Assembly: GCA_016180705.1 (NCBI GenBank)
Contig: JACPAU010000023.1
Span: 1-6,118 of the forward strand
Direction: 5' to 3'
DNA length: 6,118 bases
From: Candidatus Methylomirabilota bacterium
Lineage (GTDB): Bacteria; Methylomirabilota; Methylomirabilia; Methylomirabilales; JACPAU01
The position numbers and the translations under genes were made by a program. A model generated the notes under the pieces. That model did no database searches and was not told where the DNA came from. It worked only from the letters and a program-made list of their open reading frames with translations. This document shows, one piece after another, positions 4,332 to 5,189 of this stretch. How positions within the stretch are numbered: position 1 is the first letter of the stretch; each line of letters opens with the position of its first letter.

Positions 4332-5189
4332 ATGAAACGGGTGGGCATCTTCTACCATCCGTCCTTCAGCCGGCGGTCGTACCTGACCGTCGGGCGCCGG
4401 TTGGCCGATTTTCCGGGGGCGCTCGAGCCGCTCCTTCGGGAGCCGGCCTTCCGGCTTCTGACGTGCCCCGAGGCGCCCGACGAGTGGATCCTGCGGGTCC
4501 ACGACCCGCGGCTCATCCCGGCGGTGGAGGCCGATCCCCTCTGAAGCACGGCGCGCGCCTCCGTGGGGGGCGTGGTGGCGGCGGCCGAGGCACTCGCGGC
4601 CGGCATCTTCGAGCGGGCCTTCGCCTTCATCGGGGCGGGCGGGCACCACGCAGGCCGGGACTACTTCGGCGGCTACTGCTGCTACAACGACGTGGTCATC
4701 GCGATCGCCCACCTGCGGGCGACGCGGAACGTCCGCCGGTTCGCGATCCTGGACACCGACGCCCATCACGGGGACGGGACGCGCGACCTGACCGCGGAGG
4801 ACCCGGAGGTGCTGCACGTCTGCATCTGCGGGACGGGCTTCCTCTCGCCCGACGGGACCAAGGTGGACGTGGCGCTGCCGGAGGCGCTCTGGAGCGGTGA
4901 GGACGCGGACGCCCGCTACCTCGAGACCGCGGAGGCCGGCTTCGCCGCGCGCGCGCCGGCCTTCCGGCCGGACCTCACCGTCTGGTACTTCGGCTTCGAC
5001 GGGCACCGGGGGGATTACGGGGACATGGGGCTGAGCGCCCGGTGCTTCACGGGGCTGGCAGATCTCGCCTGTCGCGTGGCCGATCACGCCTCGGGCGGGC
5101 GGCTGCTCACCGTGCTCGGCGGGGGCTCCCGGACCGACCTGGCCACGGCTCTCATCCCGCCCATCATCCGGCGCCTGGGAGAGGCCTGA
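4332..5189 (+). CDS. Histone deacetylase-family protein with in-frame TGA (codon 71)
   Basis: The family comprises zinc-dependent amide hydrolases acting on acetyl-lysine, acetylpolyamines or similar amides. Read through one TGA, the frame gives 285 residues. Conserved elements are GAGGHHAGRDYFGGYCCYND (paired H105-H106), DTDAHHGDG (zinc ligands D143 and H145, plus D148) and FGFDGHRGD (third ligand D223). The usual GGGY with the catalytic tyrosine is GGGS (S266). The TGA at 4542-4544 falls between DPL and STARASVGG; frame and family similarity continue on both sides with no other lesion, and TGA is the normal stop of neighbouring genes. Options are selenocysteine insertion (see the hairpin at 4554-4574), a single nonsense change in a pseudogene, or a sequencing error. 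The GTG at 4563 has no clear ribosome site and would lose the first 77 residues. The ATG at 4332 is preferred to a GTG at 4311 by family-like MKRVGIFYHP. Its end overlaps the rlpA start by one base. Confidence 0.8.
4554..4574 (+). promoter_or_regulatory. SECIS-like hairpin after the in-frame TGA
   Basis: CGCGCCTCC (4554-4562) pairs with GGGGGCGTG (4566-4574): nine pairs including two G-U, with apical loop GUG. Eighteen bases separate the TGA from the loop. Bacterial SECIS elements as generally described have an apical loop about 16-37 bases after the UGA, a 4-16 bp upper stem, and a G in the first two loop positions; all three hold here. The high GC content makes chance stems common, so this supports but does not prove selenocysteine insertion. 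Confidence 0.4.

Follow-up and report, generated by a model that had tools for sequence, protein, structure and literature searches.

The stretch of DNA analysed here (hereafter the window) is 6,118 nucleotides long, and constitutes contig G000:C43 of a 1.65-Mb metagenome-assembled genome (MAG), 64% complete, from a Candidatus Methylomirabilota bacterium. It carries a gene of the histone deacetylase (HDAC) fold whose reading frame contains an internal TGA, followed by a hairpin that resembles a selenocysteine insertion sequence (SECIS); these and other features are collected in Table 1. The closest named record found is a Candidatus Methylomirabilota MAG, whose encoded protein is 87% identical. 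As an earlier note on this DNA had described, the TGA is the only internal stop in the frame, with no other lesion, and the deacetylase resumes beyond it: when the frame is read through, the Pfam family Hist_deacetyl (PF00850) matches residues 72–268 with 139 bits. The protein database entry holds only the downstream part (4563–5189, 208 amino acids). Judged by comparison of sequences, the UGA, at an otherwise invariant Cys site of this gene, is very probably decoded as selenocysteine (Sec).

Table 1. Positions of the gene, its recoded codon, the hairpin, predicted functional residues and one neighbouring gene within the window.
Feature	Position	Strand	Remarks
HDAC-fold gene, one UGA read through, 285 aa with predicted Sec71	4332..5189	+	ATG 4332, terminal TGA 5187-5189
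Predicted selenocysteine, in-frame TGA, codon 71	4542..4544	+	Single TGA in 16 of 17 genomes with the orthologue, Cys in the other relatives examined
SECIS-like hairpin, 9-bp upper stem, GUG apical loop (4563-4565), 18 nt past the UGA	4554..4574	+	
His105-His106, position of the HDAC His dyad	4644..4649	+	122/122 and 81/81 rows; PDB profile alignment
Cys116-Cys117, invariant	4677..4682	+	122/122 and 81/81 rows
Asp143 and His145, predicted zinc ligands	4758..4766	+	122/122 and 81/81 rows; PDB profile alignment
Asp223, predicted zinc ligand	4998..5000	+	122/122 rows; 80/81, one row not extending to it; PDB profile alignment
Ser266, at the catalytic Tyr position of canonical HDACs	5127..5129	+	Aligned with the Tyr of HDAC6 GGY
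Gene for a small 98-aa protein with two CxxC pairs, flanked by the GNAT and creatininase genes	3292-3588		

I searched 95 genomes of the phylum, and drew a set for codon-by-codon reading from 60 genomes, the window's own included. An orthologue (E 1e-60 or better) was found in 17 of the 95, with one TGA in 16 and Cys (TGC) in one. The search of the 60 yielded 15 genomes whose gene carries exactly one TGA, and G004, whose gene carries none; all 15 TGA loci, read codon by codon, have it in the same column, where G004 has TGC, and no frameshift was seen. The counts exclude an additional, partial copy with TGA in G032 (C307), as well as a downstream fragment in G006 (C402). The motif surrounding residue 71 is DPL-U/C-STA...SVGG. 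Among loci from named genomes (80 of 97 kept), 13 have TGA, 42 TGC and 25 TGT, hence 67 Cys, and none has another stop. These counts are not independent, as all 13 named TGA records belong to the 16 TGA genomes; of the 16 orthologue loci one is the window (L016), 12 are contigs of named TGA loci, L030 is the Cys locus L068, and only L023 and L031 are new to the named-locus statistics. One TGT locus (L122), whose codon was read separately, failed the motif pattern and stands outside the tree and structure statistics. In the protein database, the best 120 of 1344 matches show Cys in 118 of the 118 that reach the site, while the other two start past the UGA. The homologues thus carry Cys or TGA here, and the relatives the same single TGA without frameshifts, as the earlier note's suggestion of a Sec replacing Cys had anticipated. 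The Cys family was found in Desulfobacterota, Archaeoglobales, Aquificota and others; the Archaeoglobales form (L114, L116, L117) is 48–50% identical, and was possibly exchanged with bacteria.

A premature stop in the window MAG, together with the appearance of such genes in the database as shortened downstream open reading frames (P0004, P0019), could also be read as the mark of a decaying deacetylase gene with a nonsense mutation. However, each of the 16 genomes, which come from several families, has exactly one stop, always TGA, and the 15 loci share its column. In 10 TGA pairs hand-picked from 15 sequences, the ratio of non-synonymous to synonymous substitution rates (dN/dS) is 0.07–0.21 past the UGA and 0.07–0.61 before it; the sequence is coding, and under purifying selection, on both sides. 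Neither further lesions nor relaxed selection were observed. Because the codon is shared and selection is purifying, decay of the gene is refuted, and I consider it extremely improbable. Even less credible is an error of sequencing or assembly that turned TGC or TGT into TGA, since separate records agree: the same TGA is present in 13 named records with several accession prefixes.

In a tree of 87 rows, all 16 TGA rows fall within one 19-member clade (support 100/98), which includes three Cys members as well, all of them database proteins. The TGA clade comprises Methylomirabilota/NC10 and one "Rokuibacteriota" MAG. Three changes of the Cys/TGA label are needed on this tree, most simply one gain of Sec followed by two reversions to Cys, a direction that the tree does not establish; in this clade the exchange between Cys and Sec likely happened more than once.

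I then considered the machinery for Sec insertion. In the window genome selA scores 583 bits (cut-off 267.9), and the gene for tRNA-Sec (selC) 76.7 bits (cut-off 47). SelB is split at contig ends, with a 487-aa part that contains two SelB winged-helix domains and a remainder, the 21-aa start of the GTPase, on another contig; its score of 173.8 bits is under the full-length cut-off of 242.25. All of selA, selB and selC are therefore represented in this genome. Of the 15 TGA genomes in the set of 60, 12 have selA and 12 have tRNA-Sec, and both occur in each of the seven with a completeness of 90% or more (selB was searched in the window's genome only, and the sixteenth TGA genome, G084, lies outside the machinery searches). 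In addition, a search for selD in 35 other relatives recovered it from all 35, and at 34 of 36 places the gene itself contains a TGA, which suggests that this group reads UGA as Sec. The cell's SelA, SelB and tRNA-Sec would decode UGA71 at the predicted SECIS just downstream.

An internal in-frame UGA flanked by conserved sequence on both sides could also reflect its decoding as some other amino acid, by a general change of the code, or leaky read-through without Sec. However, UGA also terminates this gene and 4 of the 5 neighbours checked, and the general code is therefore unchanged; moreover, the codon exchanges with Cys alone, and tRNA-Sec is present. I therefore rate such decoding as very unlikely, if somewhat less so than decay or error.

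Two observations on the Sec genes may be recorded here. A second, longer tRNA-Sec-like gene (54–58 bits) accompanies the main one in G017, G020 and G023. Separately, a second HDAC-family paralogue is located about 1 kb from selA in the window genome (G000:C76:557-1075 and 1911-3257) and similarly in G002:C124, G003:C256, G004:C105, G015:C7 and G027:C100, and several further genomes have both on one contig; the association of a deacetylase with Sec-tRNA synthesis is thus a recurring one.

The hairpin is as the earlier note gave it, and its stem strands span 4554–4562 and 4566–4574, with G-U pairs counted. According to part of a 2026 review, bacterial SECIS (bSECIS) elements have a loop of 3–9 nt, a stem of 4–16 bp, a spacing of 16–37 nt and an energy of −7.5 kcal/mol or lower, with a G within the first two loop positions (PMC13188914). 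I coded these published constraints directly, and the window falls within them (3-nt GUG loop, 9 bp, 18 nt, −14.5 kcal/mol), as do 13 of the 16 TGA genes, the window's included, versus 9 of the 66 Cys genes. The conforming hairpin of the window has p = 0.025 against synonymous recoding. When the 45 nt past the UGA are compared to recodings that keep the protein fixed, the mean z is −1.29 for TGA genes and −0.22 for Cys genes, and of the 47 positions compared in TGA genes this segment folds best. A consensus hairpin over the 16 orthologues, whose pairs span 4547–4577, has 96% of cells paired versus 37–68% when slid, with covariation in five cells, altered on both sides. Synonymous-site conservation past the UGA is mild (codons +1 to +12 rank 19 of 275, with a synonymous divergence pS of 0.463 versus a median of 0.57). 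The apical loop falls on the codon of Val78, and its G-U is therefore also fixed by the protein. An Rfam scan of the window at the gathering threshold returned no match. The hairpin exceeds chance solely through comparison across genes, and the SECIS is a predicted one.

The GTG of this loop could alternatively be the start of a second protein, such that the locus would encode a 70-residue piece up to the UGA and a 208-residue piece restarting at 4563; an open reading frame does exist at 4563–5189, and is recorded as a protein. The Cys relatives, however, possess a single chain, the N-terminal 70 residues are conserved, and the GTG is Val78, located inside both the conserved motif and the apical loop. 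This arrangement is hardly credible, and ranks in probability between decay of the gene and a change of decoding.

Several observations weigh against decoding of the UGA as Sec. No selD over the cut-off was found in the window's 64%-complete MAG, so that, of the machinery the earlier note had proposed to look for, selA, tRNA-Sec and pieces of SelB were recovered from this incomplete genome and selD was not. Among the TGA genomes, G021, G022 and G024 gave no selA match, and G022, G029 and G032 no tRNA-Sec match; all of these are at most 85% complete. The Cys genome G004 keeps selA and a TGA-bearing selD, with no match for tRNA-Sec, and its Cys is therefore not due to full loss of the machinery. 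As selA is over the cut-off in 51 of the 60 relatives, G004 included, the machinery shows capability and not a specific link to this gene, and its co-occurrence was judged a weak test. Three of the 16 orthologues (L049, L051, L056) exceed the bSECIS energy limit, and the window hairpin taken alone is ordinary (z = +0.55 for the 56 nt past the UGA, against dinucleotide shuffles), for which reason it was dropped as proof by itself. The p-value against synonymous recoding has a median of 0.195 per gene, and the hairpin comparison rests on related, non-independent sequences. The proposal that residue 71 is Sec is nonetheless supported by the machinery present, the Cys homologues and a TGA conserved without frameshifts.

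Membership of the PF00850 superfamily is indicated by the profile match, the predicted fold, two Asp and one His as predicted zinc ligands, and His105-His106, which I take to be the catalytic dyad of HDACs. NCBIfam models gave 0 families at E 0.01 for the three members scanned. The Tyr of the GGY motif that characterizes canonical zinc deacetylases is lacking: position 266 is Ser in 122 of 122 rows, and in a second alignment, of which 80 rows extend this far, Ser occurs in 77 and Ala in 3. As none of the examined members has the catalytic Tyr, ordinary lysine deacetylation is not to be assumed. The predicted structure, obtained with 66 rows, places residue 71 just ahead of helix 74–89, in a region that appears to border the HDAC active site; it supersedes a first model with 17 rows (predicted local distance difference test score 83, loops below 50), and the rows of both alignments were hand-picked.

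Sec is usually the residue that performs the chemistry, and its predicted presence where Cys is otherwise invariant suggests a chemically active residue 71. This residue would be redox-active or nucleophilic and located beside the zinc centre, and may pair reversibly with the invariant Cys116, switching the zinc enzyme on and off, in the way that part of one report describes for Cys102 and Cys153 of human HDAC8 (PMC6174833). This pairing is a guess by analogy, which I rank before a catalytic role for the chalcogen. When aligned to human HDAC8, Cys116 falls on what I take to be Cys153, an equivalence that serves as a lead; residue 71 presumably corresponds to Phe109, seven residues past Cys102. 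The latter counts against the proposed role, and because residue 71 would match Phe109 and not Cys102, the pairing would be like that of HDAC8 in idea, not in detail.

Sec71 could instead be the catalytic chalcogen, replacing the lost Tyr or binding zinc, rather than a redox switch. All rows that extend to the Tyr position have Ser or Ala there, all that extend to residue 71 have Cys or UGA, and residue 71 precedes helix 74–89, which suits such a role; I hold it to be possible, but unlikely. A little more doubtful is the proposal of a selenium-dependent HDAC branch in which, the catalytic Tyr having been lost, Sec71 (Cys71 in the parent family) serves the zinc site as its working chalcogen. 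If true, the protein would act as a zinc-selenium acyl hydrolase or acyl-transfer enzyme, and its chemistry would go beyond that of known HDACs.

Should decoding as Sec hold, it would define a selenoprotein family new to the catalogue of the 2026 review, and enlarge the prokaryotic selenoproteome. It would suggest that a redox or catalytic thiol lies hidden in the Cys family of Desulfobacterota, Archaeoglobales, Aquificota and others, raise doubt whether proteins labelled "acetoin utilization deacetylase AcuC-like" or "histone deacetylase" are deacetylases, and allow the shortened Methylomirabilota annotations to be corrected. A Methylomirabilota MAG from a 2026 study in Cell Rep by Deng and co-workers, reportedly on groundwater MAGs, could include the window gene. 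In the review, it is cited as having 63 predicted selenoproteins (Deng et al. 2026; PMC13188914). The earlier note had called Sec not established in the deacetylase family, and this agrees with the part of the review that lists 119 prokaryotic selenoprotein families, where the whole of Table 1 has no deacetylase or PF00850 entry (PMC13188914). A term look-up returned the word "deacetylase" 0 times in the text retrieved for PMC13188914, PMC12013277, PMC9312934, PMC1794560, PMC2398784 and PMC5029168. No deacetylase selenoprotein is among the literature matches listed; Deng et al. 2026 and Haft and Tolstoy 2025, which part of the review names among its table sources (PMC13188914), might mention one.

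The neighbouring genes in the window encode RtcA, a Fic protein (on the opposite strand), a GNAT acetyltransferase, a creatininase-family protein and an RlpA-like protein with a SPOR domain. Six of the 13 named TGA loci have an RtcA homologue upstream, at a distance of 16–2106 nt. Among the 25 largest clusters of neighbours, none is common to Methylomirabilota and Desulfobacterota, and none points to a substrate. In Desulfobacterota loci (among L055-L123), the Cys gene is closely preceded (median 46 nt) by a histidine-phosphatase-like gene in 18 cases and has a U32-peptidase-like gene nearby in 21, both names being a reading of the sequences. The window also contains a 126-nt direct repeat (93%; 1–126 and 1291–1416) and a 124-nt inverted repeat (97%; 1097–1220 and 1395–1518), the latter copying the 3′ end of the RtcA gene into the end of the opposite-strand Fic reading frame (1383–2570); these repeats are either a rearrangement or an assembly artefact.

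Compared with known systems, the window protein is 26% identical to HDAH, the bacterial HDAC-like amidohydrolase of P. aeruginosa (PDB 5g0x). Unlike HDAH, its subfamily has Ser in place of the catalytic Tyr, and a set of invariant positions comprising Cys/Sec71, Cys116, Cys117, Cys164 and Cys166. The Cys subfamily found in Desulfobacterota and other groups, whose members carry the label AcuC-like or histone deacetylase, is about 48–74% identical and shares the motifs, but differs in having Cys at position 71 and a small SECIS-like signal as a group. FdhA, SelD and other bSECIS selenoproteins likewise have a UGA at a Cys site, SelA, SelB and tRNA-Sec in the genome, and a hairpin 16–37 nt downstream with a G in the first two positions of its loop; in contrast to these, the window protein is predicted to adopt the HDAC/zinc-deacetylase fold.
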